IMG/VR virus record: IMGVR_UViG_3300030090_002660
Coordinates: 1 to 47,513 of that record
Strand: one strand, 5' to 3'
Length of the DNA: 47,513 nt
Source: a virus
Shown here: in pieces, positions 1-47,513 of the stretch
How positions within the stretch are numbered: the stretch's first letter is position 1
Layout of the letters: every line of letters starts with the position of its first letter
Position numbers and translations under genes: made by a program
Notes under the pieces: generated by a model
The model's database searches: none
The model's input: only the letters and a program-made list of their open reading frames with translations
What the model was told of the DNA's origin: nothing

Positions 1-114
1 GATCGTGAAGAGCAACCGTTAGCTCTCACCTTTGGCTCTGCATTTCATGAGTGCCTAGAGTCATTTTGGAACTCCACTAAAAAGGAAGAAGTTCATGAAC
101 AAAGTATCAGCTAA
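1..114 (+). CDS. PD-(D/E)XK nuclease, 3' end of gene (continues from 46634-47513)
   Basis: Frame 1 is open from base 1 to a TAA at 112-114. It encodes a 37-residue tail that includes TFGSAFHECLE, the G-x-x-x-H-E box known as motif I of RecB/Cas4-type nucleases. If the seven bases shared by both window ends (GATCGTG) are merged, this tail continues the open frame of 46634-47513 without a break and gives one 328-residue protein, with the motif I histidine near residue 307. A direct join without merging would give a stop within three codons. In the usual family order this box lies near the N-terminus, before the catalytic core; here it lies at the C-terminus. The stop overlaps the start of the next gene by 20 bases, which suggests translational coupling. 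Confidence 0.7.
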   Translation, partial: DREEQPLALTFGSAFHECLESFWNSTKKEEVHEQSIS

Positions 115-1412: not shown

Positions 1413-1447
1413 AGCACTGGGAGTTAGCGCTCCCAGTGCTTTTTTTT
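1413..1447 (+). terminator. intrinsic terminator after the SSB-like gene
   Basis: A perfect 11-bp stem (1413-1423 with 1430-1440) has a six-base loop and is followed by an uninterrupted T run to 1447. It lies between the SSB-like stop and the ribosome site of the primase-helicase gene, so it would separate or attenuate expression of recombination and replication genes. Confidence 0.9.
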
Positions 1448-1460
1448 GCAAGGAGAAAAT

Positions 1461-6035: not shown

Positions 6036-6308
6036 TCAACCTCCAAATATTCCTGTTTTGAATGCGGCAAAACCGCCCATTACCAAACCTATTAGTATCA
6101 CAAGCCACTTCAGACGGGTTCCTTTAGCCTTGATCAGCTCTGTTTTCTGGGCTGTCTTATCAAGCTTATAGTCCCTTTTGCCATCCTTACGCTCCCCACG
6201 AGCAACGTATTTAGGCTCATAACCATGAGCTATAGCTTCTGTGGTATCTTCTGAATTGCTGTAATACCCCCACTTATCAAGCTTCTTAGCTCTCCTATTT
6301 TTGCTCAT
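6036..6308 (-). CDS. small protein with one C-terminal membrane segment
   Basis: The product from the ATG at 6308 is 90 residues: a basic, polar N-terminal part (MSKNRRAKKLDKWGYYSN) and a single hydrophobic span near the end (WLVILIGLVMGGFAAF). It overlaps the last 14 bases of the giant gene, so it is probably coupled to it. A spanin-like, holin-accessory or virion-associated role is possible, but nothing in the sequence settles this. Confidence 0.6.
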   Translation of the reverse strand: MSKNRRAKKLDKWGYYSNSEDTTEAIAHGYEPKYVARGERKDGKRDYKLDKTAQKTELIKAKGTRLKWLVILIGLVMGGFAAFKTGIFGG

Positions 6309-9300
6309 CGGTATACTCACTTAAGATTTCAGACTTAACTTCTCTTTCCTCTGGGGAAGTGGCAGAGTCTAACATCCCTTCAATCGTCTTATCGCTAAAG
6401 ACTGGTTTCCTATCGGATCTGTTAATAAATGCCTGGATATCGTCCTTAGGGACATTCCAGGTTCTAAGTGTACCCTGGATATCGTCCAGGCTTAATCCAA
6501 GCTTCCTAGCGGCATAAACCACACGCCCCATTTCATCATACAGCATGGCGTTATCATTACGAAACTTCATCATTTTCCTGCGGAAAGTATCAGAATTCTC
6601 ACTAAACCCAGACCGCCTTAAATCGTCTTTGATAACCTTTAGTTTAGACCTAAATTCAGAAGCTTTAAGAGTTAATTTTCTTTGAGCGTCGATACTTGTC
6701 ATCTCCACTCCGGCAATCCACCGCATTGAAGCCCCTAGCATACTACGCTTAACACCCGTCCTGGTTTCTTCCCCCTTCATTGCTTCCATAAACCGCTGTG
6801 ATTCCGTAACGAATCCAGGAACAAGAGGACCTCTTGCTCCTGATCTAAGCCCCAGAGTTATATGGTCAAGTGAATTCTTCATCTTATGAAAAGTACTATC
6901 AAGAGAGTCGTAAACCTTTTTGGAGTATTTAGGTTGACCTCCCCTTCCAAAAAATGGGATCACATCTACGAGCTTGCTTAAATATACGTCTTCATCCAAG
7001 TAAGGATCTAAGCCTTCAAAAACAGCAGCCATTAAACCGTCACCTATGCCGTGTCTTTTGGTGTGTCGATAACCAGCTGAAACAATGTCCCCAAAAACCA
7101 GGTGAGGCATCACCATGGAAAGATCAATAAACTCTGGTCCTTCATCGCCCCACTTAAGAACAACCATGGTGTGGTCTTTTTGCCACTCTGGAAGCAGTTC
7201 TAAGTAAGCTTCTACCTCTTCTTCGTCGTCGAACATCATCATTGGAAGTAAGGATCGCAGGATGACCGACATTCCTATGTCAGCTGCCAATCCAGAAGCT
7301 AATCTAGTTAAACCTCGTTTCTTCCTGACTGGGTTATCACTCTTCAATTCCTTAGCGATAGTAAGATACTTACCTATCGTCGCTCTATAAAAACTAGATT
7401 GCCAGGAAGCAAAAGAACCGACAAATGGGGTACTACCAAGTGCTTTCGGAAGCCTACCTATTCGGCTGTAAGTTGTAGTCATCTCCAAGACGTTATTTAT
7501 TGCCGTTTCCTGTATGCCTAGCATTTCAGCTCTTATTTGAGAGTCGCTCTTATTCTCCCCTAACTTGCGAGCTCTTATCTCATGCTCCCTTTCCTTCAGA
7601 TACCCCATAATCTTCACCATGTCATCGGGCATTCGATACAGAGCCTTCAGGGAGTTCATTACCTTATTGTCAGTTATTGAGGTGAACAGTCGGTCTGAGT
7701 ACCTACCTGCGGCTTTAGCAATGGCTTTTCCAGACATATTTTCAGCCTTCTTCCTTTGCCTCCCCTTAAATCCTTGGTCCCACTTGCTTGCCGAAAGCTC
7801 CTGCATTTCCTTTTCATTTATCTTCCACTGGTCATTTGAAAGAACACCTTCTCTAAGGAGCATGTCCCCTAGCTCATAAAGATCTTTATTGTTCTCGTCA
7901 AACTCATCAAAGAATGACCTTTTGAATTCAGCCCAGTTCTTACCGATACCTCCCTTGGCTCCACGCTTCTTCCAGTCAACAGCCCTAACCGCCAACCCAA
8001 GTAAGTGCACCGGAGCCGCCGTAAGCAGCTGAATCTTACTTGAGTGTTGCCTTTTGGTTTGATGCAGTGAGATAATGTAAGCTTTTCTGAGACTGTCATA
8101 ACTAAACCAGCCATTAACCAATGCATGATAAGTAGCATCTAGCGGGTTCCTGGATTGTGCCCTTGGATTAGCCACAGTCAACATAGTCTTCGTAGTCTGA
8201 CTTGCCTGAGATAGCAGAGCCAATCCCACATCGAATGGATTACCCCGAGACTTCCAGTGGCCGACTACGGTTTTGTTGAATGCATTCTGGATTGCTTCGT
8301 ACAACTCTTCAGTGAAGAAGTAACCTGATTCGGATAGAACACCCCACTTGTCACCGCTAAACGAGAACTGGTGGGTTTCACTGCTGTTCTCACTTATCTG
8401 ATCACTAAATACAGAGTCCAGGAGAATCTCATTCTGGAATATTGCTGTCGATATCAAAGATCCCATTTTGTTTACGGTAATGGCGTATCCGGTTTCTGGG
8501 TCCCTGATCTCTCCGTATAGCTCCCTGAATACTTCATCAAGTTCCTTACGCTGCATAAGAATGCCACGATCAAGCATGCTATTGTCTTCGCTTTCGACCA
8601 CACCCTTCTTGGTGTGGTCGTTAATAATGCGTTGAACAATGTCCCTGGCTTCAGTTATATCTCTCTTAGTAGCGTTGAAATCAGACTCCCAGACCTTCCT
8701 TCCAGCAGGACTGTTAGCCCACCTGTTCTTCCATTGTGCAGCTAAGAACTTAAGTGCTAACTTAGTATCGCCACCAAAATTACTGACCACGTTGGCATGC
8801 TGGCCAGCAGCAAGCTCCTTACGGACTTGAGCTCTGTATGCTCGGTAATCTTTAGAGATTTGGGTATTCGGGTTCCCGATTACATCTCTAATTGCTTTAT
8901 TCTTAGCAGCTTCCTCCATGGACTTGTTGTCTTCTTCAAGAACAACCTCAGCTGCTCTCTCCATTAGCTCACGCCCACGCTCCGAGTAGCGGATCATGTC
9001 CACATAATCCTGGCTGTTGAATAAAGCATAAGCCCTGGTTACATAGACATTGATGTTCCGGTCGATTTCCAGCTTCATCTCTTCGTCGATGCCAGGAACA
9101 TATTGGAGCAGGAGCTTAGACAATTCGTCGATGTGATTACGAGCGTCATCCAATCTTTTCATGTATTCTTGGAATAGTTCTTCTACCTTCTGCAATTCTT
9201 TAGGGTCTTTGATTTCTTTAGCCAATTTCTTCGCTAAATCATCTCGGGCAAATGGGTCGGTGAGAGCCTCAAACAATGCTTCTTTGATTGCGGGAGGTAG

Positions 9301-12300
9301 CTTATCAACACCTATTTTGCTCCTGATAGAACGCATGGCATTAAAGTTACGCTGCATGCGGTCATCGACTTGCTGTAAGAATCCTTCCTTCTGTTCAGTT
9401 AGTCTAGTTAACCTGTTTCTCTGAACAGGATCATCAATGTTGTGAGATCGAATTGCAGTATTGAATAAATGCCTTATACCTTTACCCCACTGAATCGGTC
9501 GGCCTATGAAATTATCAGCCCACTGAATAGACTTTATCTTCTCCTTGGAGTTCCTAATAAGTCCTTGGGCTTTCGCTCTTTGCCGTTCACCCCTGGCGTT
9601 CTTAACTTCTTCAGAAGCTTGTCCAATAATGTCGTAGAAGTTTCTACTGTGCCTAGAGGGTACTGTGCGAAGTCGGGTTAAATAACTCTGTTCCCGTGAT
9701 TTCTTCTCACTAGCAAGCTTACCGGAGAACCATTGGTCAATGATGTAGTCCAGGTTCATTTCACGGTGGCCGCTGTTAACCAGGACCCTGTTCCACATTA
9801 AGCCTAGTCGACGGACAAGGTTCCTGAATTTCCTGAGGATACCAGACTTGCTTCGCTGTCTGGTCTCCTGGTTGAATGCGTCTGTGAGTACGTCAGCTGT
9901 CGCTTCAACAATCATATCCCAGCGTTCATTACCCGTCATTCGGCCCTGTTCAATGGCCGTTTGGAGTATGAAATCTTGCATCTTTTCATCAAAGCGACCG
10001 CCCATCTGAAGCATATGGGAAATTTCGTGGATAAGAGTCTTCCTTCCACCAGGAGAAACATCCATACCTAGATCGGAGATCAGGATAACCTGATCTCCAC
10101 CAGCTAATCGCATGTTAAGGAACATACCACCAGTAGCAGATACACCAGTATCTTCCCTGGCCTGATCGTACTCTTCCATACGACCATAACCTTCTACATC
10201 CCCTGTCTTGTAAGGTATGAACTTGACATGCTTAATCCAAACCGTCTCACCTCCAAGTTCATATTCAAAAGCACCAAGGGCTTCACTGAAACCGATGTAC
10301 TTAAGACCTGGAATATAGTCCTCAGCTGCACGTGGATCAATGTCCTTGTCAGTACCTGGAAGATTAGTCCACTCTAGGTGTGTGAACTGCTCACCCTCCT
10401 GCTGGGATTCTTCGGTTTCATACTGAGATAGGTCTATGGCATTCCCATCTTCATCGATGATCTGCATGCCTTGAGATTCTAACGAGAACAAGCTTTGCTG
10501 GGTCATAGGACCATCGTCGATATCTTCATCTATCTCGGACTCCATCTCTCCTTGGCCATGCCTTGCGGCTCTCTCGCGCAGTACCTCGTCCCAAGGCTTA
10601 ACTTCCATGCCCTTAGATTCAGCCTTTGCTATGACTGCGTCTGTCACACTGTTGTACAAATCTGGATTATCTTGCAAAGCACCAGAGTTAAACCATTCTT
10701 CATCCATGTCTCTGGAATCTAGTTCGTCCAAGAACATTTCATAAAATGGACCCTCAATATCCGTTACGGTAATTCTCCTCTGATGAAGATCCTGCTCTTT
10801 TTTCTTCTGAGCATTCACTTTTCTGATCTGATGCTTTTTAAGCTTCCTATTTTTAAGCTTTTTACGCTTTTCAGGTGGCTTATCTGCCTCAACTTCAAAA
10901 TCTTCAGGAATATCAGGAGTATCAGGAGTAGGTTCCTCTACATTGGTGACTTCAGATTCAACAGCGTCAATCTCCGCTTCTGCCTCTTGTCCAGGATTCG
11001 CTTTTTCTTTTTCCAGTGCCTCTTTAATGTCAGCAATGTCGCTACTAAAAACCTTGTGCTCAATCTCAAGCCTGTCAAACTTTTGATTCCTATTGAAAGT
11101 AAGAGCCATTGGAAGAGCGTTTTTCATGTTGTCAAGACCACGGACAGCATCGTCACGATATTGGATCATGGTATGTGAATACCTGTAAGCCTCTTCAATG
11201 CCCTCTTCAATCCGTTTTTTCCATGAGTCTGGTACCTTCTTCCAAAAATCAATTAAATTCTCTACGGTTACAGTAGAAACATCAACAGACACTGAACTGT
11301 CACTACGTCCGACATACTCACCCCATAGAACTGACAGCTCGTTCCCAGCACTAGCGTAAACATTGGCCCAGCCTAAGATTTTGTGTGACCCAATCCCCCT
11401 ATGCTCATACAAACGAGTTTCTTGTGGTACGCCATGAACATTTTTGACAATACCCAAAGCATAATTATTATCATTCTGAGGATTAACGAAAACTCCTCCT
11501 TCAGAAAATGGAACATCAAGCTCAAGAACGGCAGGAGCAGTAACATAGACATTTCTATGCATCTTGTCACCGACAGTAATAGTTCCATCCTTAAAAGATC
11601 CTGTCCTTGTCCTGAGATACAGAATATCCCCGTACTCGTAGTAGTTCTTGGGGTCCCTGTAGCGGTCATCTTGCTCAAAAGCAAGCTTAAGAAGATCATG
11701 GTTCTCAGGGTTATTGAACTCTACCTGGTAAGCATCAACCTCATCCTGGTCTACTGGCTCAGCTTCTTCCTGGGGAGATTCAAAATCTTGTTCAACGCTA
11801 AAGTCGTAACGCTCTTTATACGAACCATGATACAAGTCGATTACTGTTGAGATTAAGGCATCCTCTTTTTCTGGGAACGTCCTCAAATACTCTTCTGTAC
11901 TTAAGCCAATCTCCATTGCCCATGATTCAAGAAGGTCATTAAAGCCAATATCAAACATGTCTTTAATGTCATCTTCGTTTTCCGCAATCTCTTCATTTTT
12001 AATTTGCTCAAGAATTAAATCATCCATCATTGCGGTGATTTGATCCATTTCAATATCGTTGAACTTCCTTGAATGCTCTTCTGGAGTTAAAGCTCCGACA
12101 TTGTTTACTTGGGATTGAGACTCTCCTAATTCAGAGGCGTAATAAGCCTTGACCTCATCTGATATGTATTCCGAATACCCTTCTTCATGAAGTCGCTGGA
12201 CAATCTTAAGGTGTATCTTTTCAAAGTTCTTTTCAGACAATGGATTACCATCATCGTCATGCATGAATTTATCGCTGTCGATATCATTCAAAAACTCTTT

Positions 12301-15300
12301 TGTTGCTGCCCACCAGTCAGATGGCAGGTTGTAACCTGCCAGGGTTGCACTGCCGATATAGTTATCTTCGTCCGAAGCACCCTTCTTTAAGCCAGTGTTA
12401 ACGGTGAACCAGAATGCGTCGTCTCCGTGACGACCGTACATTGTTTTATCAACGACAAGATGCCTACCATCTTTCAATGTCACAACGGCCTGACCGCCAT
12501 CAGTAGATGCTGATATAGTGCTGTTAAGAACATCATCACGCCCGTCAATTACATTGGAAGCAATGAGTTGAGATATACCTAGCTCAACGCCGACTTCCAT
12601 GTCAGCTCTTCTCTCATCCCCAGTTTTTTTAGACCATTCGTCAGCAACCAAAGTAGGAGATACGTCAGGGTCTTTCGGAATATTGTTCTCGCCATCATTG
12701 TTGCTATCACCCTTGTCGATGATTGTGAGATTGGCCATAGGCCGCATGATCAGCTTGTTTATGTATCGGCGTGGGGTATGGGCATGGGTGGCGGCGGCAT
12801 GGGCATCGAATGCTTTTTGACTTTGAATCTTTCCAAGGGCTTTAGCGGCGAAGAACTTCAATCGCCCCGTTTTCTCTTCCTGGCTCCAGGTGAACATGCT
12901 CTTATGCTGACGCATGAAGTGACTGCCTTCCTTCAGCATGTCATTCATTTCCTTTAGGAAGTCAGGCTTGTAATGGTAGTTTTGCCTCTCGTTTTCTCTC
13001 CAGTGTCTCCATATAAGTGACTTAGCTGAAGCCCAGCCACTGCGTACAAGATCTCCCTGGGGCTGGTCTTTGTAATAAACCTGCCAGTTAAACCTTACGT
13101 CACTGTCAGGAACAGCTATGCGGACCAGGCGATAGTCTTTGAATTCACGACCACCCAGATACTCTTCATCATTCTTCAGTGTTATGTAAACATCCTCCCA
13201 TGATTGAGGCTCATCATGATCTTCATACTCTCTTTGGTAGTAATTGTCATGAAGATACTGGATCAAAGCTAACTTGATCCCGTCATCGTTGGTGTTGTTT
13301 GCTACCCAAGAATCAATGTGGTGACGAATTTCCTTAGGCATCTTCCCGCGCAACTGCATATACTTTTTGCGTACTGCCCTGTTCTTAACACCAGCTCTAC
13401 CGCCTCTAAATTGAGGAGTTACAGTGCTAGATGCACCCACGAAAGTAAGGCCCATCCTCTCGTAAATAACATTAGCTGATGACTGAACTGCCTTAGCAAA
13501 AGACTGCATGTTGCTATCCATCAACTCAAGATCAATAGGTTTACTCTGACCTCGTTCATAAACCCTAACGGCAGCATCGCCTTCCATCTTGCCAGTCGGC
13601 AAGTATCCATGATAGACATCAAACGTCCTTATCGGAGCATTGGGGTCGCTAAGATCAATGGCATGGTACGTTTTAACCCTGGTAGGGGACCTGAGTTCAA
13701 TGTCGTGATCCAGGTCATATCCGTCTTCTAAGTGATGTACATTAACCCTTTCACCGTTAACTATGATCCCTATTTCAGGGCGAACTCTACCACCTTTTAG
13801 ACCCTTACCTTCAAAATGCTTAGGGTGGTTAGGTGGAACGTAGTCTGGATCGTCTTTCAACCTCCAATTAGGTGAGTATTCATCCCTAAGAACAAATGGA
13901 TCTGGAGTAATCCTGTCGAAAAGCTTCTCCATCCTATTAGCGAACTTGTAGTCTTTCTTCTCTTGGGCGGTTCTTTTTTTGCCCTTTTCTCTAAGCTCTT
14001 TAATTTTCTCAAATGTCAATCCACGAGATTCAAGCTCTTCGCTAATAGCATCTTTGTAAGAATCAAGAATATTACCTAACTGCTGTAACTGGGCAGTATC
14101 TAAGTCTAGAATGTTTCTCCCAGGGAATTCTTGTTCAATAATAGATTCCCAGTTTTTACCTTCTAAGGAAGTAATGATCTTTAATCGCTGTTCCCTACCA
14201 GTCAGAAAATCAGGTTCCTCAGGAGCAGGCTTAGGGGCCTGCTCTATTACTTCTGCATCAAGGTTTATTCCATTACCGGTAACCGCTTGATACATCACTT
14301 CAGCAAGCATGTTGTCAGTGACAACTTCACCAGAATTAACTCGCTGTCTGTAGCCGAGAACAGCACGTTGAACCTGTTCTGGTGTAAGCTTCAGGTATTT
14401 AAGCATCTGCGCAGACCAGGCATCAGGGTCCTCAAGTATGCCGTCTTTGATAAGACGCTTGAAGTTCTCACCCATTCTCCTGGCTCTCTTCATTTCGCCA
14501 GGTGTTGAGTCCCACTCATCACGGTATTTCGGGAGGTACTTCTCACCCTTCTCAAGCTTACTTACAAAATCGGTTAAATGTTCCTGTGCCCACAAAACAT
14601 CATCAGGATCTGCACCCCTGCGTGCAGTGTACATGTATTCATACAACTCATCTTCCTGGGCAGCAGTTAAGTACCTAGCCTCTGGAGAATCTAAGTGAGC
14701 TTGTACCCTGTCGATTACTCTCTCTATCCACGCTTCGGATATAGGGTAACGCTTTACAGGAGCTGGGGTGACATCAGGAACTGCACTGTCAGGATTGAAC
14801 TGAGCATCCAACCAATCAGGTACCTGCTCACCGGTAAACTTCTTCCTTAGGTACATTCTCTGAAGCTCATTGCTAAGGAAATCAGGGATCTCTTCACCCT
14901 TAGCTTGCTTGATTTTGATGTAGTTTTCCCATGGCATAGTACCGATGTCTTCTGATATCTGAAGGACAATTGGCTCACCTGACTTATCAAGTCTTATCGT
15001 CCTAAACTGAGAGTCTAAAGGACGTTCGGCAATACGGTTTAGCTGATCAAATAGCGTCTTAATGTCAGCGTCTATGTTAATGCGTTCTTCAGATGTTTTA
15101 GCAAGCTTCATCCTCTCTTCAAGGTCAATAAGAGTACCTGCAACATCATCCAATAGCCCTTCTCTTTTTAGCTGAGCCATAGACAGGACTTGCATCTTAA
15201 TGTCTTTTAACGCCTCGTTACGGGCGTGCTGGTTCATCCCGTCAGAAAGCATTTCCAGGAACGTGTTGCGTTGGTCCTGGCTGTTTATACCCAGCTTCTC

Positions 15301-18132
15301 AAGGTTGGTGGGAACAAGGAATTTCTTTTGGGTAGCAACTAACCTCTGAGATGTTTGCCCTAAAAGACGGTTGATAATGCCTTCACGGGACATTGTCGAT
15401 ATCATTCCGTCAGAACCACCATTAGCCAGAACCCAACCTCTGAAGTTCTGGTCGTCCATTGTCATCAACTGGTGGGGAGGCATAAACTCCCCACCACCCT
15501 GATAATTAATGACTGATTCAACGCCCAATTTCCGAAGGTAATCATCGGACCACTGCTGAACCATCCCAGTACCCATGGCTTCCATGAGCTCAGATAGCAG
15601 TTGAGCTTCCGGTGTTTCCATGTTGAGAGAGCCATCGTCGTTAAACGCATTCCTGGCAAGAAGGAACTTATTAAACTGCGACCTGGTAGGCTCTCCTTCT
15701 AGAAGCTGTAAAAACTCATTAACAAGAGTTCCGTCCCTATCGACATGCTTCATAAACACATCGACAACAGGCTGCATTTTCTCTCTGAATTGCTCTGCCT
15801 GCTTTTCCTTCAACTCTAAATTAACAAGCCTCTCCCCAAAAGCTTTATATATGGAAGGGTTTCTTTCAGAGTCTAACAATCGCTTGCGGAACGCTCTGCG
15901 TGCTGTAGGTGTATCAAGAAGCCTGGAGATAGGCAGATTGAATGTCTTGGTAGTACCATCTGGCATCAACACATCAAAGTCTGACATTGTCACACCAGCC
16001 ATACCTGAATGCGTTGTAGACGGATTCTCCAACCAATCAAGAATAGATTCAACATCACCTAAATCTAAGTCGTATTCAGGGCTTATCTCTATCCCTTCTT
16101 GAGTTGCTAAATTGTATATATCCTCACGGCGATACGTGATACTAGCATTTTCAATTTCAGCCTGCGCAGCTGCTATTTCTTCCATAGCAACTTCTTGATC
16201 AATAATGTTATCGCCAGCTTGAGCAAGCTTCCTCTTGGCTTCTTTTAGATTTTCAGCAGCAATAGCTGCGTTGACATCTGTTTCATAATCCAAAATGCCC
16301 TGATCTCTTAAATCATCTAACTGCTGCTCACTAATACCCAACATTTCAGCAGCGTCTTCAGGAGCTATGTGTTCCTGGGACAGGAGTGTGTCTTCTAAAT
16401 CCTGGATATATGAGTCTGCCCAAACTTCACCCACTTCAATTTCGGCAGCTCTTTTCTCCATGAATTCCCGCATGAGCTGCTTTTCGCCACGCCGTACTCC
16501 GACACGGCCTCTAATTCCCATGCCAGCCGAAAGAAACGACAAAGCACCTCCTGAACCGATGAGTTCCTTTACGAACTCATCGCCTACTTCCTTAGTTGTC
16601 TTATCGTATTCGACACCCTCTGCTAACCCAGCTAGATACTTTGTAGTTTCACCAATACCCCACTGAACCATTTCTTCAGCTGTTTGGACAGCAACAGCTC
16701 GTGGCATCTTCCTTCCAATATCAACAACATCATCCCAACGTCTTTTCAGATAACCCTTACGTGACTCGTGTAAGGCTTTCACTAATCCAGAGTGGGCTTC
16801 ATCGGCTAACTTTGTTGTTTGCAAAAGTTGTTGACGCTCAACTAAAGCTATGACTATAGAGGCAGGCAAAGCTGTAAGAGCAGCTGTCGTAGGGTCCATA
16901 CCCATTTCCATGAGCTCTTTTTGCATTGGCACGTATTCAGCAGCAGTCCAATAGCCAACGCTACCAATCTTACCCGCACTCTCAACACTCTTAAGCATGT
17001 TCTTGCGAGAGTTTATTGCAGCTATTTTTTGAGCTGTAGTTGCTCCTTTCTGTACGCCAGCTGCTAATGTCTTCCCTCTAATAACCTTGTTTAAGAAACC
17101 AGCTACCTTAGCAGTACCTGTACCAGCCGCTTGACCACCAACCATCATGCTTCCAATGTGGACCAAAGCAGGGGCTACGGTGTCATCAAGATTTTTGCCA
17201 ACGTGGCCGATAACACTGGTCCCAGCGTCTTCCATCCCTTCTACTCGGGCACCGCCAAGAATGGCCTTAGCCATTTCTAAAGTTTCTTTTCCGTAATCTT
17301 CTTGGCCACTAGGTTTTTCGTGAGCCAAAGCGTCAGCAATTGTCAGTGGCAAAGCACCAAGTGTTGCAGTACCTTTTACAACCTCCTCTGCTGTAGCAAC
17401 AGTCTTACTCTTGTAAGTCTTCTTTGCTTCCTGGACAACATCACTAAGAGCTCTCAAAAACCTTCGATGCTCGGTCTTCGGCATGGTACTTAGCAAAGCA
17501 GCTAAGTCTTCTTCTTCGATATGCCCTTCGGTATGATTAGAGATAAACATACCTTCGGTACCTACATTGGCACCTATCGTACTCTGCAACTGCTCTACCC
17601 AAGGCTGCACGTAGTGATTGGCGAGAGCATAGGCTCTCACCTCATTCCTGAAGTCAGTGAAGTCAATTTCCTGGTCAGGATACTGCTCCCGCATCTTGCG
17701 GAGCTCATTGGTAGCAAGCTTATCAAGTGCTTCATTTGTATAAAAAGCACCGTCCTTTTGCTTACCTGTTGCTGGATCTATACGTTCATCCCTAAGTTCA
17801 AAGCCAGCCGCTTTACTGTTGAACCAATGATCCCATGTTCCTTGGTAACCCCTACCAGGAGAAAGCTCATCCATATTCAGGGCGGCCATAGCCCCCTTTT
17901 CCCATGGATGTACATTACCTGCTTGATCATACACCATGATCCGAGGCTTTATGCTGTTCTCGCCACCCTCTAAAGCAATCTTCCTAGCAAAGTCTCTAGC
18001 TACTTTATGCTTATTTTGTTTAGTAATTCTGGGTCCGATTAGATCTGGATTGAATCCAGGAACAGACTCTCTAGATCGAATTATCTGCGCTGCGCGTTCC
18101 CATTGGGAAGCGTTATTGTATCCATCTGCCAT
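6295..18132 (-). CDS. giant 3945-residue virion or ejection-type protein with a zincin motif
   Basis: One uninterrupted frame covers 11.8 kb, a quarter of the window. Residues 2702-2706 are HEISH, preceded by a hydrophobic strand, the zinc-binding motif of zincin metallopeptidases. Hydrophobic Ala/Gly-rich stretches lie near residues 318-345, 415-436 and 525. A very basic linker lies near 2410-2450. A C-terminal region (about 3480-3660) with an FVGSFASWQSSFYRA segment and a hydrophobic SVILRSLLPMMMF patch resembles the associated domains found at the ends of large polyvalent phage proteins. I infer that it is packaged in the virion and injected with DNA, like inner-core proteins of podoviruses but far larger. 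It follows two other large virion-type genes. Only the zincin motif is specific; other enzymatic domains may be hidden. Confidence 0.75.
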   Translation of the reverse strand: MADGYNNASQWERAAQIIRSRESVPGFNPDLIGPRITKQNKHKVARDFARKIALEGGENSIKPRIMVYDQAGNVHPWEKGAMAALNMDELSPGRGYQGTWDHWFNSKAAGFELRDERIDPATGKQKDGAFYTNEALDKLATNELRKMREQYPDQEIDFTDFRNEVRAYALANHYVQPWVEQLQSTIGANVGTEGMFISNHTEGHIEEEDLAALLSTMPKTEHRRFLRALSDVVQEAKKTYKSKTVATAEEVVKGTATLGALPLTIADALAHEKPSGQEDYGKETLEMAKAILGGARVEGMEDAGTSVIGHVGKNLDDTVAPALVHIGSMMVGGQAAGTGTAKVAGFLNKVIRGKTLAAGVQKGATTAQKIAAINSRKNMLKSVESAGKIGSVGYWTAAEYVPMQKELMEMGMDPTTAALTALPASIVIALVERQQLLQTTKLADEAHSGLVKALHESRKGYLKRRWDDVVDIGRKMPRAVAVQTAEEMVQWGIGETTKYLAGLAEGVEYDKTTKEVGDEFVKELIGSGGALSFLSAGMGIRGRVGVRRGEKQLMREFMEKRAAEIEVGEVWADSYIQDLEDTLLSQEHIAPEDAAEMLGISEQQLDDLRDQGILDYETDVNAAIAAENLKEAKRKLAQAGDNIIDQEVAMEEIAAAQAEIENASITYRREDIYNLATQEGIEISPEYDLDLGDVESILDWLENPSTTHSGMAGVTMSDFDVLMPDGTTKTFNLPISRLLDTPTARRAFRKRLLDSERNPSIYKAFGERLVNLELKEKQAEQFREKMQPVVDVFMKHVDRDGTLVNEFLQLLEGEPTRSQFNKFLLARNAFNDDGSLNMETPEAQLLSELMEAMGTGMVQQWSDDYLRKLGVESVINYQGGGEFMPPHQLMTMDDQNFRGWVLANGGSDGMISTMSREGIINRLLGQTSQRLVATQKKFLVPTNLEKLGINSQDQRNTFLEMLSDGMNQHARNEALKDIKMQVLSMAQLKREGLLDDVAGTLIDLEERMKLAKTSEERINIDADIKTLFDQLNRIAERPLDSQFRTIRLDKSGEPIVLQISEDIGTMPWENYIKIKQAKGEEIPDFLSNELQRMYLRKKFTGEQVPDWLDAQFNPDSAVPDVTPAPVKRYPISEAWIERVIDRVQAHLDSPEARYLTAAQEDELYEYMYTARRGADPDDVLWAQEHLTDFVSKLEKGEKYLPKYRDEWDSTPGEMKRARRMGENFKRLIKDGILEDPDAWSAQMLKYLKLTPEQVQRAVLGYRQRVNSGEVVTDNMLAEVMYQAVTGNGINLDAEVIEQAPKPAPEEPDFLTGREQRLKIITSLEGKNWESIIEQEFPGRNILDLDTAQLQQLGNILDSYKDAISEELESRGLTFEKIKELREKGKKRTAQEKKDYKFANRMEKLFDRITPDPFVLRDEYSPNWRLKDDPDYVPPNHPKHFEGKGLKGGRVRPEIGIIVNGERVNVHHLEDGYDLDHDIELRSPTRVKTYHAIDLSDPNAPIRTFDVYHGYLPTGKMEGDAAVRVYERGQSKPIDLELMDSNMQSFAKAVQSSANVIYERMGLTFVGASSTVTPQFRGGRAGVKNRAVRKKYMQLRGKMPKEIRHHIDSWVANNTNDDGIKLALIQYLHDNYYQREYEDHDEPQSWEDVYITLKNDEEYLGGREFKDYRLVRIAVPDSDVRFNWQVYYKDQPQGDLVRSGWASAKSLIWRHWRENERQNYHYKPDFLKEMNDMLKEGSHFMRQHKSMFTWSQEEKTGRLKFFAAKALGKIQSQKAFDAHAAATHAHTPRRYINKLIMRPMANLTIIDKGDSNNDGENNIPKDPDVSPTLVADEWSKKTGDERRADMEVGVELGISQLIASNVIDGRDDVLNSTISASTDGGQAVVTLKDGRHLVVDKTMYGRHGDDAFWFTVNTGLKKGASDEDNYIGSATLAGYNLPSDWWAATKEFLNDIDSDKFMHDDDGNPLSEKNFEKIHLKIVQRLHEEGYSEYISDEVKAYYASELGESQSQVNNVGALTPEEHSRKFNDIEMDQITAMMDDLILEQIKNEEIAENEDDIKDMFDIGFNDLLESWAMEIGLSTEEYLRTFPEKEDALISTVIDLYHGSYKERYDFSVEQDFESPQEEAEPVDQDEVDAYQVEFNNPENHDLLKLAFEQDDRYRDPKNYYEYGDILYLRTRTGSFKDGTITVGDKMHRNVYVTAPAVLELDVPFSEGGVFVNPQNDNNYALGIVKNVHGVPQETRLYEHRGIGSHKILGWANVYASAGNELSVLWGEYVGRSDSSVSVDVSTVTVENLIDFWKKVPDSWKKRIEEGIEEAYRYSHTMIQYRDDAVRGLDNMKNALPMALTFNRNQKFDRLEIEHKVFSSDIADIKEALEKEKANPGQEAEAEIDAVESEVTNVEEPTPDTPDIPEDFEVEADKPPEKRKKLKNRKLKKHQIRKVNAQKKKEQDLHQRRITVTDIEGPFYEMFLDELDSRDMDEEWFNSGALQDNPDLYNSVTDAVIAKAESKGMEVKPWDEVLRERAARHGQGEMESEIDEDIDDGPMTQQSLFSLESQGMQIIDEDGNAIDLSQYETEESQQEGEQFTHLEWTNLPGTDKDIDPRAAEDYIPGLKYIGFSEALGAFEYELGGETVWIKHVKFIPYKTGDVEGYGRMEEYDQAREDTGVSATGGMFLNMRLAGGDQVILISDLGMDVSPGGRKTLIHEISHMLQMGGRFDEKMQDFILQTAIEQGRMTGNERWDMIVEATADVLTDAFNQETRQRSKSGILRKFRNLVRRLGLMWNRVLVNSGHREMNLDYIIDQWFSGKLASEKKSREQSYLTRLRTVPSRHSRNFYDIIGQASEEVKNARGERQRAKAQGLIRNSKEKIKSIQWADNFIGRPIQWGKGIRHLFNTAIRSHNIDDPVQRNRLTRLTEQKEGFLQQVDDRMQRNFNAMRSIRSKIGVDKLPPAIKEALFEALTDPFARDDLAKKLAKEIKDPKELQKVEELFQEYMKRLDDARNHIDELSKLLLQYVPGIDEEMKLEIDRNINVYVTRAYALFNSQDYVDMIRYSERGRELMERAAEVVLEEDNKSMEEAAKNKAIRDVIGNPNTQISKDYRAYRAQVRKELAAGQHANVVSNFGGDTKLALKFLAAQWKNRWANSPAGRKVWESDFNATKRDITEARDIVQRIINDHTKKGVVESEDNSMLDRGILMQRKELDEVFRELYGEIRDPETGYAITVNKMGSLISTAIFQNEILLDSVFSDQISENSSETHQFSFSGDKWGVLSESGYFFTEELYEAIQNAFNKTVVGHWKSRGNPFDVGLALLSQASQTTKTMLTVANPRAQSRNPLDATYHALVNGWFSYDSLRKAYIISLHQTKRQHSSKIQLLTAAPVHLLGLAVRAVDWKKRGAKGGIGKNWAEFKRSFFDEFDENNKDLYELGDMLLREGVLSNDQWKINEKEMQELSASKWDQGFKGRQRKKAENMSGKAIAKAAGRYSDRLFTSITDNKVMNSLKALYRMPDDMVKIMGYLKEREHEIRARKLGENKSDSQIRAEMLGIQETAINNVLEMTTTYSRIGRLPKALGSTPFVGSFASWQSSFYRATIGKYLTIAKELKSDNPVRKKRGLTRLASGLAADIGMSVILRSLLPMMMFDDEEEVEAYLELLPEWQKDHTMVVLKWGDEGPEFIDLSMVMPHLVFGDIVSAGYRHTKRHGIGDGLMAAVFEGLDPYLDEDVYLSKLVDVIPFFGRGGQPKYSKKVYDSLDSTFHKMKNSLDHITLGLRSGARGPLVPGFVTESQRFMEAMKGEETRTGVKRSMLGASMRWIAGVEMTSIDAQRKLTLKASEFRSKLKVIKDDLRRSGFSENSDTFRRKMMKFRNDNAMLYDEMGRVVYAARKLGLSLDDIQGTLRTWNVPKDDIQAFINRSDRKPVFSDKTIEGMLDSATSPEEREVKSEILSEYTDEQK

Positions 18133-20107: not shown

Positions 20108-23100
20108 TTATCCGTAGGTTAACATTGGTTTCTTCATCATATTAGAACCCCTGGCAGCATTAGATAGTCTGTTAAGACCACCGCTTCCAGCCCGAGCCGT
20201 TCTCATTCCAGGAGCTTTTTGATTCATTGTAGGTTGGGCACTAGCTCTTTGTCTCAATGCTGCAAGAGAATTTGGATTACCCTGCTGTTGCCGCCTCTGA
20301 CGAATCATCGCCCCATAGCCCTCTTGCCCGAACATGGGTTGTTCGGTCCTTGCCTCTGGGCCTTGCTGCATACGTGATGCTTGAGGTTGCTGTGCACCAC
20401 CCCACCTTGGAGCACTCCTCAGACGTTCCTGTGTGCCTTGATCTGCGTAGCCGAAATTCGCATCGCCTCGTTCCATTTTGAATCGTTGCATTTGCTGGTA
20501 TAAAGACGACCTATCCTGCGAGCCAGCGATACCGCCTTTTCTTTTTGCCCAATCTCGGAATTGACGCATGTCATCCTGATTCAAACCCTGCGTGGCAGCA
20601 GCATCTTGGTAATCGCCCATCCACGCATCTCGGTTAACACCGCCTTGGTTACCACCACCTTGAGGAGCAGCGATAGAACCGTGAATTGGAGGTGCAGGTG
20701 GGAATCCACCACCACCTTGAGGCTGTTTTAGTGATCCATCAGGATTACGAGGACGAGGTAAGGCACTACCCTGACCGCCACCTTGAGGTGCATTGAAACT
20801 CACATCTGCTGGTTTGTCATAAAAAACTGGGTTTGGAGGGATTCCACCACCGCCACCATTGAGCATGGTGGTATTACCACCAGAGGTCGGTTTACCTTTC
20901 TTATCAAGGTAAACCCTTTCACCACCGTCAGCAGTAGTGTACCGTCGTCCACTTTCATCAACGCCATCTCGGCCCCAGTTGTTTTCAGGGCCGGGTTTTT
21001 CCTCCGGCTTGTTTTGTCCACCGGCCCTATTTGGATCGCTTCTTATAACCCATGGAGGTGTTTTACCACCACCACCTGGAATGCCTGGGGGCATTCCTTT
21101 TATTTCAGGACCCCCTCGTCTATTCCAGACACCACCAAGTACTTGACCTTCACTACCTCTAGCACCACCTGGAATGCCTGGGGGCATTCCTTGTATTCTT
21201 GGGTCACCCTTGACTGGTCCTTCAGAACCAGGCTGACCCCATACTGGAGGTCGTTTCCTTTCTCCACGATCACCACCGTCGTCTCCACCGCCACCAGTGT
21301 CGCCACGGCCTCCACCGCCGCCACCGCCGCCGCCTCCACGGCCACCGCCGCCGCCGCCGCCTCGGTTGATTTTATCAACCATTTCTTCTTGCTTTCGGAG
21401 CTGCTCTTGCCAGATTTGATTTGCTAGATCCCACTGATTTTGCATACCTTGGTTGGTCATGTCGGTATGTGCTTGACCGCCAGCCCAATAATCTTCTGGT
21501 TGATACGGCCTCTGGTTTTCCATGAAATCCGCTTCTTCTTTTTCAGTAAGCTCCCTTTTGATAGGCTCTTCCATGAAAGCATTTGGATTCCATACACCAG
21601 CTTCAGCATCCATAGCCTGCTTGTCTTTAAGAGGCATGTACATTTCACCATCGGTACCTTCAGCTGAAACCCATGGAGTGCCGTCAGGACTTGTACCCCA
21701 TCCACCACCGCCCATGCCTTGGCCGTAATTTTCGCTGGTGAGCATCTCTTCCATCATGCGGTCTGCACGTTGCTCTGGACTCTCTGGAATCCTCAAGTCA
21801 GTAGATCCTCCTAATGGACCTCCTGGGGTGCCCATAGGGCCAGGAACACCTACGTTACCGCCAATTTGTTCAAGGCGTTCATTTTGCCGTTGAATATCGT
21901 CAAGCCTTCCTTGCTGAACTCGTTCGTTTGCTTGCTCCATTCGGATGTCTTCACGCAACATTGGATTTCTAAAGGGATCATTTTTAGCGTCATCATATCC
22001 TCCTTGGTACACATCTTCGGCGCTAGGACCTCCTTGATAAGCAGGTCGGCTCATACCATCTTGCATAATTGCTGACTGACCACCGCCACTCTGACCACCG
22101 CCTCGGTTGTCAAAGCTCACATCTGCATTCGGTGGTGGCATCACACTCATACCCATTCGTTGCGGTTGGCCCTGAGCCTGAGCAGCTAAGCCTCGCAGAC
22201 CCTTAGCTGCATTAGGAGCCATAATCCCCTGACCACCTGATTGACCTGGTGGACTACTCCATGGACCGGCATCGCCGTACATTTCTCCATCTGTTCCTTG
22301 CATGCTAGTCATCATTTGACCATCGGGCCCTGGAACCTGAGCAGCCATAAACTCTTCATAGTTTGCTCCTTGAGGCAGTAATGGTGGAGCCCCTAAAGGA
22401 CCTTGAGGTGGAAAAGGCATGCCTGGGCCTTCACCAGTCGGAGTACCTGGACTTGCCGGTGGCTTGGGAAATGGACTCTGCGGTCCAGATGGACCTCCTG
22501 GAGAAGGCCAGCTTTCAGGAATTGTAGTAGGAGACCACGGTCCTGTCGGTGACATAGGGCCGTCTGTACCAGGAACAGTTTCTCCACCACCTGGGCCACC
22601 TGGACCTGTTGTTGGACCACCTGGACCACCAGGATTAGGCCATGGTCCACCTGGTCCTGTAGGCGACGTAGGACCATCAGTTCCAGTACCTGTCCCTGGA
22701 CCACCTGGAGTCCCAGGTCCAGTCGGACCTGTTGGTGTACCTGGCCCCGTTGGTGTACCTGGTCCCGTCGGTGTACCTGGCCCTGTTGGACCCGTTGGAG
22801 TGCCTGGTCCCGTTGGAGTGCCAGGACCTGTTGGACCAGTCGGAGTACCTGGACCTGTCGGAGTGCCAGGCCCCGTTGGCCCTGTTGTAGGACCGCCTGG
22901 ACCTGGAGAACCTGGACCGCCTCCACCAGGGATATTTATTGGGCCGCCTGGGCCACCTAAAGGTCCTCCAAAAGGTCCTCCTGGTTGATTAGGTGAACCC
23001 CACGGGCCAGTAGGTGACATAGGGCCATCGGTACCAGGGACAGTATCCGTTCCTGGGAAAGTACCTGTTCCTGGAGGCGCATTAGGATCGTAGTTTGGAT

Positions 23101-26100
23101 CTTCCCAGAACGGTGGAGAAGTGTTTCCACCAGGAGGCCCTTGCGATTGAGGGCCAGCGTTGGTTCCAATTACTTCAGCACCACTAGCCGAATCAGTAAG
23201 CGTAACTTCACCAGTTTCTACGTTCTGGTTAACTGTTACATTGATAGGCATACCCTGAGCATTAGACTGAGCTGCATTTTCTTGCATACGCTGAGTAACA
23301 CCGTCTAGCTTGCCCATAGCATCCATAATGCCTTGACGGCCTTTTTCGGCTTCAGCCAATGCCATCTCAGCACCCATACGAGCTTCTTCGGTGACTGCCC
23401 TACCAAGATCCCCTTGGATCTTGGTAATCTCATCGTTTTTAGCCGCCAGCTTGTCTTCATTAGCTTTTCTAGCTGACTCTATTTTCTCCATTTCACCTTT
23501 AAGGTACTCATCGTTCTTGTCTTCAAGTTCTCGCTGACGATCAAGTAAATCTTTCTTTATTTGATCCTGAGCACGCCGTTCTTTTCGTTCTTCTTCGGCA
23601 ATGACACGGTCCCTATCAAACTTGTCTTTAGCTCTTTTGTCTTTATTAGCAGCTCTGTCTTTCTCTCTTTGAGCCCTACCTTCTTCTGCTCTTATACGAT
23701 CTTCCTGAGCCATCTGTTGCTGAGCAGCCACTTGGCCTTGCATCCACTCATTCTGTTTTCCTATCTGACCCATCAGAGCTTGAACAGCAGGGTCAATCCC
23801 AGCTGGAACTCCTCCACCACCGCCGACTCCCATGCCACTTTGACCAGCAGCCATAACTAGATCGGCCATGTCTTTCAGGGACGGAACAGTGTCAGTCCTT
23901 CGTTCCATGTAATCAAGCTGGCCCTGTTTAGTTGCGTCACCACGCACATCACCACGCTCAGCAGCTGCTAATCCCTGAGATCCGAGTTGGCCCTGCATGC
24001 TATAACCAGCAGATTGCTGGCCTAGTTGGCCAGCAAGACCTTGACCTGCTAATTGCCCTTCTAATCCGGTAAGCTGTCCTCTCGCAGCAGCCTCAGCACC
24101 TAGCCCCTGACCCAACAATCCAGCTTGAGCACCTAGTCCCTGACCGACAATATTAGCTCTAGAAGCAGCACCTTGGCCAAGTGCATTTGCCTGTTGACCC
24201 TGGATTCCAGATGTCAATGCAGCGTCAGCACCTCTCATTTGCTGCTGCCCACTAGCAGCTGCTGCCAATCCAGCCAATCCAAACTGACCAGCCTGACCTT
24301 CTAGAGCAGCTTGCCCTCTCTCTCCCGCAGCTTGAGTCGCCTGTCCCAATGCTGTTCCAGCGGCAAGGTTTTGTCCAGCCATTTGCTGAGCTGCACCAGC
24401 TCCTGCAAGACCTGCTTGAGTCTGAGCTGCTGCTCCCTGGGCTGCGAGCTGCTGTTGTCCTGCTGCTCTTTGGCTAGCTAAAGCTTGCTGTCCTGATGCA
24501 CCCTGAGCTGCTAATCCACGTTGGCCAGCAGCTTCCTGACCTGCCAGACCAGCTTTAAGGTTTGCTGCCTGTGATGCAAGTTGTTGTTGAGCACCTAAGC
24601 CCTGACCTGTTAAGTTAGCTGCTGTACCAGCCTGCTGCCCCAACAGTCCCATTTGTGCTTGAGTACCCTGCTGCAAAGCGCCCATTTGAGCACCTAAACC
24701 AGCAAGACCTGCTCTTGACTCCACATCCGAAATAGCTTGTTGACCAGCCGCTTGTTGAGCAAGTCCAGCAAGACCCGCTTGCTGGGCAGCTTGTTCACCA
24801 CGAACCTCAGATCTTTCACCAGCCGCTATTTTCTGCTGTCCTAATTGAGCACTTGTTGAAAGTTCATCTCTTCTTGCTTGTTCTCCAGCACCAGCTTCAG
24901 CTCCAGCTAGAGAAGCTTCTGACTGTAAACCTACCTGCTGAGCTGCATCTTGAGCACTCATGCCTTGGCCGGTAAGACGTTCATACGCCGAAGCTTTTTG
25001 TTGTCTTACTTGAGAGTCTACTTGACCAAGAGCTTCAGAACGATTTCTTTCAATGTCTGAAGCAGCACGGTCTAACTGACCACGGATAGTAGTGCTATCA
25101 AGACCTCTATTTATTAAATTTTGCTCCATGCTTGCAAGCTGAGTATCTCTCTGCTCGTCAAACCGGCGATTGATTTGGGCTTTAGTTTCATTAGCCATGT
25201 TGTCGTACATGCCTAATCCGGTTTCAGCTCTTTGACCGTATCGTTCAGCTCTTTCGCTTTGAGCAGTTCCGGCAGCTCCTGCTGCCGTTTCCCTGGCAGC
25301 ACCAAATCCAGCAGCTCTTTCCTTAGCTGCTGAGCCGAACTTTTCTGCCATTCCTTTTCCAAGCTTGTCAAATCCTTCGGTTGTTGCTTTGCCAGTTGCT
25401 TGGGCAGCTTCTTTCCCTGTTTTACCGAGCTCAGAATAACCTTTACCTAACTCACCAAGCCTACCTTCAGCTCTGCTAGCAAGATCTTGAAGTGTTCCAG
25501 AAGCAAGCTGACCTGCTTTAGCTTGAGCTTTATCTGATATACCAGCAGCATCCTTGCGGGCTGCTGCAAAATCTTGTCCTACTTGGCCTTTACCTTTTGC
25601 ATATCTCTGACCGGCAGCAGCTACTTCTCCTGAGACAGCCTTATCTACTTGTCCACGTGCTTTATCAAAAGCTTTAGCTGTCTTTTGCTCAGCAGCACCC
25701 ATAGCTTGCTGAGCTTGTTTGGAAGCTGCATCAAATGCTTTGTCTGCTGTTTTAGAAGCACCTGCAAAAAGCTGGCCTGCTTTGCCTTGTTGCTTTTCGT
25801 ATTTCCCGAGAACATCCGCTGCTGCCTTTTGTCGGGAGCTAGCGTCCTTGCCTTCCAGGCTTGCATAGCCAGCTTTTACTTTCCCTCTTCCTGATTCAAC
25901 AATCTTTCTTTGAGCCGCAGCTTCTGTTTTGTATTTGCCTACTAGTTTATCTATATCTTTAGATGAACGATCCAGTACGCCCTCTCTAGCCTTTGCTCCA
26001 AGGTCTCCGATTTTCCCCGAGACATCTTCTCCAATTCCTTCAACTTTTGCTCCGGCTGCTTCAGCAAGCTTTCCAAGACCAGTTTGTCCAGCAGCAAACC

Positions 26101-26401
26101 TATCAGCTGTATCTTGTACACGACCCTCTCCTCCTGTTAATACATCTGTTCGGGTACCATCTGCTATCTCCTTCATTGCAGACGATACATCTCCACTAAG
26201 ACTAGCCATTGCTGAAGCAAGGTTGCCGTGCTTGGTATTCAAGGCATCTAAACGACTCTTCTGCTCATTAACAAGTTGGTCATACCCCCTAAGGATCTGC
26301 GCATAGCGAGCCTCGTTTGTAGCATTACCTTTTTGGCGAGCGCTTTCAAACTCAGCTATTACTTGTTCAATAAGTGATTGGTGATAAGGGGTTTCAGCCA
26401 T
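20108..26401 (-). CDS. 2097-residue low-complexity protein with coiled coils and collagen-like repeats
   Basis: The protein is built of blocks. Residues 1-60 form a coiled coil. Residues 60-520 are Ala/Lys/Gly helical repeats. Residues 520-830 are made almost only of Ala, Gly, Gln and Leu (units such as GLAGQ and GQQALA). Residues 895-1035 are a highly charged coiled coil. Residues about 1085-1337 are Gly-Pro-Thr-rich with regular [11 protein letters not shown] repeats, collagen-like. Residues 1677-1714 are poly-Gly with Arg and Asp. The C-terminal 350 residues are Gln/Gly/Pro-rich and basic. It lies between the head-tail genes and the giant protein and starts at a TAATG overlap. It is probably a virion fibre or internal protein; no enzymatic motif is visible. 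Confidence 0.7.
21070..21192 (-). repeat. 30-bp exact direct repeat within the 2097-residue gene
   Basis: Copies at 21070-21099 and 21163-21192 are identical over 30 bases and lie 93 bases apart. They encode the repeated peptide GMPPGIPGG. Identity at all codon positions points to a recent duplication or gene conversion in a repetitive gene. Confidence 0.85.
22726..22890 (-). repeat. collagen-like tandem repeat array
   Basis: The DNA holds about nine near-identical units of 15-18 bases that encode, on the minus strand, GPGTPTGP or GPTGPGTP. Third codon positions vary (cccgtt, cccgtc, ccagtc), so the peptide pattern is kept while the DNA has drifted, which suggests selection on the protein repeat. 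Confidence 0.8.
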
Positions 26402-45585: not shown

Positions 45586-45890
45586 GTTACATCGAAAAAC
45601 TAGAAGATAGCAGTATCCTCAGGATCAGGCATGATATCCGTGACGCATTTTCGATCTTGGATGCTGATCCGTATCAGGATTCAACCAAGAAGGAATTGGA
45701 GGCGGCTATCCACAATAAGTTATGGATGTTCGATCACATAAGCCTAAGAAAAGAGGATGATCGTCAGACCCGTGAGCTGGTAGAATTTATTGCTAAGCAG
45801 GAAATAAGGCATTTGCAACTTCAATTCTACAGGAAATGGAAACGTGAGCAGGAACATAGCACTGAATCTGACCAAGGAGGAATACTTTAG
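45582..45890 (+). CDS. small hypothetical early protein
   Basis: The 102-residue product starts at an ATGA overlap and is almost entirely helical (RHDIRDAFSILDADPYQ, TRELVEFIAKQEIRHLQLQF). Its end overlaps the start of the following HTH-type gene by 47 bases. A terminator-like hairpin follows 34 bases past its stop. Confidence 0.68.
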   Translation: MSYIEKLEDSSILRIRHDIRDAFSILDADPYQDSTKKELEAAIHNKLWMFDHISLRKEDDRQTRELVEFIAKQEIRHLQLQFYRKWKREQEHSTESDQGGIL

Positions 45891-46323
45891 AATACGAGAA
45901 CAGATCAAGTCTGGTATCGACGATACGGACAGCTCCAATGGGGCTGTCCGTATTTTATTGCGCTGGGAAGCTGAATTTAGAAGTAAGCTTTCATCTGAAA
46001 CCCAAGTGTCCAACACAATCAAAAAAAGATTGCCCTACCTGGAGAAAGTGGGTTATATAATCCACCTGCGCAACTCTGGTATGTCTGCTGGCAAGATAGC
46101 AAAACGCATGAATCAGCTGAGAACCAAGTCCTCTACCAATCGCAACTGGACGGCTTCGGCAGTCAAGACTGCCCTCAGGACATACACGGAAGCTCAACTA
46201 CCAGACGACTACTCGGCTGAAGTTTGGGAAAAGGATGCCGAGGACAGAGCGCGTCAATTTACTGCGAGAGAGATCGAACGTCTTAAAAAAACAATTACGG
46301 CTAAAATTGGACTTGACGGATGA
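45844..46323 (+). CDS. putative helix-turn-helix protein with a terminator in its 5' part
   Basis: The frame from GTG at 45844 encodes 159 residues. The N-terminal part (LTKEEYFRIREQIKSGID and RWEAEF) resembles small helical phage regulators. The middle (IIHLRNSGMSAGKIAKRMNQ, then NWTASAVKTALRTY) resembles the HTH at the end of serine recombinases, so the protein may bind DNA. The start is uncertain: a strong AAGGAGG at 45874-45880 has no ATG, GTG or TTG at usable spacing in this frame, and a terminator hairpin (45925-45959) lies inside the frame. No recombinase catalytic domain is present. Confidence 0.6.
   Translation: MSRNIALNLTKEEYFRIREQIKSGIDDTDSSNGAVRILLRWEAEFRSKLSSETQVSNTIKKRLPYLEKVGYIIHLRNSGMSAGKIAKRMNQLRTKSSTNRNWTASAVKTALRTYTEAQLPDDYSAEVWEKDAEDRARQFTAREIERLKKTITAKIGLDG
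45925..45959 (+). terminator. strong intrinsic terminator inside a coding frame
   Basis: Arms 45925-45936 and 45940-45951 give up to 12 pairs (one U-G) with a three-base loop, followed by ATTTTATT. It lies 34 bases after the stop of the 102-residue gene but about 80 bases inside the HTH-type frame, so it could act as an attenuator of that gene. Confidence 0.75.
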
Positions 46324-46452: not shown

Positions 46453-46641
46453 ATGGATATCTTTGATCCAGATAAGATAACTATCTCTGAAGCTGCAAAG
46501 CTTCTACACAAAACGCCACAGTCGATCCGTAACTGGGTCAACAAAGGCTTGGAAGCCAGAAAGATTGGCAAGACTTGGATGACTACCAAATCAGCTCTTG
46601 AAGATTACATCAACAAGAATGAGGTGTCATCGAATGAGTAA
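46453..46641 (+). CDS. small MerR/excisionase-type helix-turn-helix protein
   Basis: The 62-residue product contains ITISEAAKLLHKTPQSIRNWV, a winged-helix start typical of HTH_17/excisionase proteins, then GLEARKIGKTWMTTKSALEDYI, the matching wing and recognition element. I chose the ATG at 46453, which has GGAAGG upstream. No integrase is in the window, so it is more probably a transcriptional regulator of the recombination operon than a true excisionase. Its stop overlaps the nuclease start by eight bases. Confidence 0.8.
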   Translation: MDIFDPDKITISEAAKLLHKTPQSIRNWVNKGLEARKIGKTWMTTKSALEDYINKNEVSSNE

Positions 46642-47513
46642 GCACTTAGCAGCAATTTCAAACTACGAAATGGAAGAGTATGACAAAGCTAAGCTTCGTG
46701 CACTTGTTCTCGGTTACTTCTATCGATATGCTGCCGACACATGGTACGCAGTTGACGTAGAGCGTAACTTTGAAATTGAACTGAAAGTAAAACCCTATGT
46801 ATTCGTTGGTAAGATAGATACGCTGATCACGGACGATAATCATGGTCTTGTTATGTTGGAACATAAGACGACCGTGCATGATCTGGGAGATCTGAATAAG
46901 CCATATTTCAAGAAGCTGGCTTATGACTTACAGCTGTCTGCCTACCACATGGCTCAACTCTTCATGGAGGAAGAGTTAGAGCAAACTATATACGATGTTG
47001 TTCACAAGCCAAGGATTCGTCCAAGGAAGCTGAAGAAAGCGGATATAGAGCAGCTACAGGCTGGTCACTATTGCGACCTTATGTTGAAAATTCCTATACC
47101 AGCAGTAGATGTTGGCGATGTGGAAACACCTGAGCTGTTTGAGACACGTTTGTTCTCGGAGATACTTGCTGACCCAGATAAATACTATCTTCGTCACGGG
47201 AATCTTCGTCGCACCACTGCTCAATGTGAGCAAACCTACTTGACGTTAAACACAATCGCTGATCACATCAGGGATGCCCGTTTGAACGGTAGCTGGTACC
47301 AGAACAGCAGTGCGTGCTCAAAGTTCAATACGCCATGTGAATACATTAACATTTGCTGCGGTACATCCAGGCCTGATGACGGATCTTGGAGGGAACGAAA
47401 AGGTTCTGACCTGTCTGGTGAATTTAACTTAAGTACATCCGGCATACACACCTTCATGGAGTGTCGTCGAAAGTACTACTACCGATACGTCGAACGTATC
47501 GAAAGAGATCGTG
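46634..47513 (+). CDS. circularly permuted RecB/Cas4-type PD-(D/E)XK nuclease, 5' part (continues at base 1)
   Basis: The frame is open from the ATG at 46634 to the window end (293 residues). It has the catalytic core (D62 in VGKIDTLI; E76-x-K78 in LEHKTT; Q100 and Y104 in QLSAY) and a cysteine set C228-x6-C235-x5-C241, as in AddB/Cas4-type Fe-S nucleases. After it, in the same frame, comes LSTSGIHTFMECRRKYYYRY with C277, which in normal family members is the N-terminal start of the protein. Motif I follows at the beginning of the window. Total length after merging is 328 residues, normal for the unpermuted family. It probably acts as the exonuclease partner of the Sak4-like protein. It overlaps the HTH gene. 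Confidence 0.82.
   Translation, partial: MSKHLAAISNYEMEEYDKAKLRALVLGYFYRYAADTWYAVDVERNFEIELKVKPYVFVGKIDTLITDDNHGLVMLEHKTTVHDLGDLNKPYFKKLAYDLQLSAYHMAQLFMEEELEQTIYDVVHKPRIRPRKLKKADIEQLQAGHYCDLMLKIPIPAVDVGDVETPELFETRLFSEILADPDKYYLRHGNLRRTTAQCEQTYLTLNTIADHIRDARLNGSWYQNSSACSKFNTPCEYINICCGTSRPDDGSWRERKGSDLSGEFNLSTSGIHTFMECRRKYYYRYVERIERDR

Follow-up and report, generated by a model that had tools for sequence, protein, structure and literature searches.

The window, that is, the complete 47,513-nt stretch of viral DNA analysed here (IMG/VR record IMGVR_UViG_3300030090_002660), encodes across its joined ends a nuclease that is very probably a natural circular permutant of the PF12705 / RecB-Cas4-like 'iron-staple' PD-(D/E)XK nucleases and that arose in place within a recombination operon. 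The reading frame opens with ATG at 46634, downstream of a GAGGTG at 46621-46626, runs to 47513 and continues through 1-111 to the stop codon TAA at 112-114, yielding 328 amino acids. The segment 46634-47513 (+ strand; ORF and homologue in the sister contig L003, IMGVR_UViG_3300030107_005704) encodes residues 1-293 with the core, three cysteines and the start motif with the fourth cysteine; the segment 1-114 (+ strand; joined frame and L003 alignment) encodes residues ~292-328 with motif I (GSAFHE; H307 at 46-48). Judged by its sequence, the protein is a PD-(D/E)XK nuclease with its halves encoded in swapped order. First in the chain come the core residues D62 (46817-46819), E76-x-K78 (46859-46861 and 46865-46867) and Q100xxxY104 (46931-46933 and 46943-46945), all on the + strand within 46817-46945, followed by the predicted Fe-S ligands C228 (47315-47317), C235 (47336-47338) and C241 (47354-47356; triplet 47315-47356, + strand). 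A linker of residues ~242-267 (47357-47433, + strand), delimited by the spacing relative to normal-order proteins, connects the former C-terminus with the former N-terminus. Last come the relocated start motif STSGIHTFMECRRKYYYRYVERIERDR (47434-47511, + strand), which is N-terminal in the normal order and carries the fourth cysteine C277 (47462-47464), and H307 of motif I. An earlier note on this DNA had given the same frame, residue numbers and length, all of which agree with the ORF and the joined sequence, and the permuted order of core, cysteines and start motif that it proposed is borne out by profile matches of both halves.

The permuted nuclease matches Pfam PF12705 at 1.5e-19 (71.3 bits against a gathering cutoff of 22) and PHROG phrog_1218 at 3.1e-26, each in two separate stretches. 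Residues 18-241 correspond to phrog_1218 positions 97-329, whereas residues 266-324 correspond to PF12705 positions 2-61, so that searched half by half the protein hits nuclease profiles in swapped order. As both profiles were built elsewhere and both give two-stretch matches, the swap is not a product of chance. In contrast, the normal-order homologue L081 matches phrog_1218 in a single stretch (1-332 to 4-351). BLASTP of permuted against normal proteins likewise returns two crossed matches, with L012 14-298 aligned to L051 90-360 (4e-46) and L012 305-355 to L051 35-83 (3e-11); each half thus aligns separately to unpermuted phage homologues. The usual order was absent from near homologues, the nearest relatives that have it being ~30% identical. 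The canonical linear motif order of the PF12705 / RecB-Cas4-like family is not present in the permuted nuclease, and since homology to the family runs through both halves, we class the protein as a permuted variant and not as a regular member. Its halves are homologous to one parent and swapped, the old ends are joined and the new ends lie in one loop.

Scanning viral contigs with profiles and removing near-copies before counting left 64 homologues, 42 permuted and 22 in normal order, a ratio biased to permuted members because the searches began from permuted proteins. The presence of the same order in 42 non-redundant relatives answers a question that the earlier note had raised about related phages. 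Among the carriers are two cultured Acidobacteriota phages with complete genomes, Tunturi_1 and Tunturi_2, in which the permuted protein is encoded by one gene annotated 'exonuclease'. At E<=0.001, PF12705 hits every one of the 42 permuted members. A search of host genomes gave one match, on a Deltaproteobacteria MAG contig (23,264 bp); an IMG/VR contig among those collected has exactly this length, so that the two are probably the same phage. No plasmid-borne relatives were found. A Sak4-like gene lies directly downstream of the nuclease, often overlapping it, in 42/42 permuted and 21/22 normal loci. The adjacency of Sak4 to both permuted and normal genes argues that the permutation arose in place. 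The rearrangement is real and inherited, and it is found across an entire group of phages.

The simplest origin, and one that fits the linker, would be a duplication after which the outer parts were lost. By this likely route, in line with the permutation-by-duplication model (PMC3320104), a tandem duplication would have been followed by loss of the front of the first copy and the back of the second, thereby connecting what had been the C-terminus with the original N-terminus and leaving new ends in the loop past the motif-I helix. Apart from single stop or frameshift cases, no tandem, partial or half-trimmed intermediates and no half-genes occur in 189 loci, many of which are near-duplicates, so that this absence is weak evidence. 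The missing duplicated intermediate would suit fission and re-fusion of two half-genes, a model established for other proteins (PMC3320104). We nevertheless consider that route unlikely, because the halves would have had to swap order within an otherwise conserved operon, and separate half-genes were seen only in L057, L080 and L088, each an isolated case of a frameshift or a stop.

Whether by duplication or otherwise, the permutation may have happened once or twice. The permuted members form two supported clades, one of 30 rows that includes L003, the sister of the window, and one of 12, with normal members between them. A tree that forces them into a single clade is worse by 4.65 log units (p-AU 0.376), and one or two permutation events are thus both compatible with the data. 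The new termini fall in the same loop in both permuted clades. It is conceivable that two independent events produced this permutation, each time with the same new termini and in the same operon slot beside Sak4, but we give this somewhat less than even credence. If true, it would imply selection for a motif-I helix at the C-terminus, for example so that DNA or the emerging polypeptide passes straight to Sak4. To our knowledge, the normal order is found in all other known RecB/Cas4-type nucleases, and for this reason it is probably the ancestral one in a tree that has no outgroup root.

The lengths of the connecting segments agree with an end-to-end join. In normal proteins the C-terminal tail beyond the last cysteine comprises 22-38 residues, and in permuted proteins the last cysteine of the triplet is separated from the start motif by 27-40 residues, so that the old C-terminal tail leads almost straight into the old N-terminus. 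After the motif-I histidine, permuted proteins end within a median of 17 residues, whereas the normal loop to the core has a median of 39; the remainder of this loop forms the new N-terminus. Together, the linker and loop lengths sum as such a join predicts. AlphaFold2, run on a modest alignment of 40 sequences, predicts the permuted and the normal form with similar scores (pLDDT 93.1 and pTM 0.87 versus pLDDT 94.9 and pTM 0.88). In these models both forms contain the same elements in rotated order: H9-17, H19-27, E30-32 and H37-53 of the normal protein are H268-276, H278-286, E289-291 and H298-316 of the permuted one. The normal model finds 14 matches in the PDB at E<=0.001, foremost AddB and RecE, with Cas4-family proteins among them; the permuted model has no match in the PDB at E<=0.001. 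It does match the viral BFVD model A0A6J5NSY1 over the full length (TM 0.83), and the element order of A0A6J5NSY1 may be read from this comparison of predictions. The relocated C-terminal part could instead dock in trans on the core of a second chain, creating a domain-swapped dimer or oligomer. The linker of just 27-40 residues and the decameric state of the Cas4 protein SSO0001 (PMC4176176) would speak for such an assembly, yet we hold it to be improbable, given that the monomer is confidently predicted as one closed fold (pTM 0.87) and that the linker has the length expected of two adjacent ends.

In the de-permuted alignment of the 64 homologues all four cysteines are invariant (64/64), in the order 3 + 1 in permuted members. 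The catalytic residues are similarly conserved, with D in 62/62 and K in 62/63 of the rows that have a letter at these positions, Q in 64/64 and Y in 63/64, while the catalytic E position is occupied by either E or D. Ligands and catalytic residues are all retained down to ~25% identity. Pseudogenes are common among rearranged genes, but for this one to be a decaying remnant devoid of nuclease function is very hard to reconcile with retention of these residues in 42 members, with frames that are open and with an operon position that is tight throughout. Two single loci deviate. In L088:233-1243 (a contig also represented by L131 and L182), a normal-order nuclease is broken by a single in-frame TAG at a position occupied by tyrosine in the relative L090; a sequencing error, a nonsense mutation or stop recoding may lie behind it. 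In L057:3310-4330 (a contig also represented by L138), a permuted nuclease appears as two overlapping frames split inside the core, the result of either a frameshift or a sequencing error.

In the window, the nuclease gene is split by the ends of the record. The last seven bases are identical to the first seven (GATCGTG), and if this overlap is counted once, the nuclease frame continues from window base 8. IMG/VR classes the record as 'linear', and circularity derived from the 7-nt overlap alone would thus be weak evidence. However, L003 encodes the same protein (99% identity) in a single unbroken internal ORF at L003:6001-6984, as does L004 (IMGVR_UViG_3300023196_001583; 97% identity), and the DNA of L003 aligns to the joined window in a single 6-kb block over the junction at 94.5% identity. 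The intact gene inside the sister contigs and the alignment spanning the junction demonstrate that the junction is real. With it, the claim of the earlier note that the gene reads across the window ends holds on independent contigs, and none of the outcomes it had named as contrary was encountered: no stop or frameshift between the nuclease parts, no assembly error and no second nuclease copy in the window record. Despite the short common ends of just 7 nt and the linear record, the notion that an assembly or end-joining artefact brought together two parts that do not belong to a single gene is practically untenable and was rejected, as the gene is unbroken in two independent sister contigs, in two complete cultured phage genomes and in dozens of other contigs.

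The gene order around the junction is HTH, nuclease, Sak4, SSB-like and primase/DnaB-like helicase. An excisionase-like HTH protein (46453-46641, + strand; phrog_2655, 3.3e-07) overlaps the start of the nuclease by 8 nt, and the start of the Sak4-like ssDNA annealase (95-889, + strand; phrog_124, 1.3e-39) overlaps its stop. The next gene (893-1393, + strand) had no match in the profile search; by its position and its acidic C-terminus ending in PF, which resemble those of the gene annotated SSB in the Tunturi phages, it encodes the probable SSB partner of Sak4. It is followed by a primase / DnaB-like helicase (1446-3182, + strand; phrog_19, 1.2e-50; phrog_21866 primase, 5.1e-17). The cas1/cas2 neighbourhood by which a CRISPR Cas4 is recognized was not found; the neighbours are the HTH, Sak4, SSB-like and primase-helicase genes. 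No nuclease-Sak4 fusions were seen in the loci examined. The 598-position PHROG 'exonuclease' profile phrog_8097 matches nuclease residues 266-312 (start motif) near its own N-terminus, and its positions 265-402 match the Sak4 of the window (95-889); these matches suggest that nuclease-Sak4 fusions exist elsewhere and would support a working pair.

Sak4 is a single-strand annealase stimulated by the neighbouring SSB (PMC5928155). Because Sak4 anneals single strands together with SSB, the nuclease most likely provides these strands by end resection, and its most likely function is that of an exonuclease partner of Sak4/SSB. In Cas4 the cluster is held by four conserved cysteines, one N-terminal and three C-terminal (PMC4176176). 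We propose that in a phage recombination operon of nuclease, Sak4, SSB and primase-helicase, the permutation took place within an unmoved operon position and the rotated chain refolds to the usual nuclease. C277 from the new C-terminal part would join C228, C235 and C241 in a complete Fe-S site, and H307 would complete the metal-binding active site. The resulting metal-dependent exonuclease would resect DNA ends, and Sak4 and SSB would anneal the single strands produced. We infer Fe-S binding, exonuclease activity and its polarity, and the partnership with Sak4.

One of the closest known systems is the normal-order phage 'exonuclease' family phrog_1218 (for example L081, L059 and L014), which has the same residues, Sak4 neighbour and predicted fold; its members match the profile end to end, whereas the permuted nuclease does so in two swapped stretches and has its new termini past the motif-I helix. 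With PF12705 Cas4-like proteins and with CRISPR Cas4 (Pcal_0546 and SSO0001) the permuted nuclease shares the PD-(D/E)XK core, QxxxY and the 1 + 3 cysteines, but the cysteine order of Cas4 is one then three (PMC4176176), whereas here it is three then one, outside a CRISPR context. The AddB and AdnA nuclease domains, whose structures are matched by the model of a normal relative, are also of RecB type, AddB being of the iron-staple type; unlike them, the permuted nuclease is stand-alone, lacks a fused helicase and is permuted. As in lambda Exo/Red-beta type pairs and the HK620 Sak4-SSB module, an annealase with an adjoining SSB is present (PMC5928155), but the nuclease belongs to a different, permuted subfamily. 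Natural circular permutation within a gene family is also known for DNA methyltransferases, saposin/swaposin and Type I S subunits (PMC3320104; PMC3874165); these have other folds, and none is a PD-(D/E)XK nuclease.

The open literature searched, a scope outside which the 2012 superfamily review (10.1093/nar/gks382) lies, contained no earlier permuted RecB/Cas4-type nuclease, and the present one is likely to be novel. RecB/Cas4-type iron-sulfur nucleases would thereby join those enzyme families in which a natural circular permutation has become fixed, and the occurrence of permuted and normal versions in the same operon slot offers this in a form ready for testing. The permutation indicates that both ends of the iron-staple fold are near enough for joining, and that the Fe-S site may still assemble when the chain order is reversed. 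Profile annotation reports 'exonuclease' and hides the swap, which is consequently missed by automatic annotation; truncated-domain calls in phages may conceal further permuted cases.

Elsewhere in the window, two giant ORFs on the - strand (6295-18132 and 20108-26401; 3945 and 2097 aa) together take up more than one-third of the genome and have no PHROG match at 1e-5 and no Pfam match at 0.001. Just upstream of the operon, a small ORF (45844-46323) weakly resembles the integrase profile phrog_95 over ~40 residues (2e-5); its second half is strongly divergent in the L003 counterpart and may mark a recombination hotspot.
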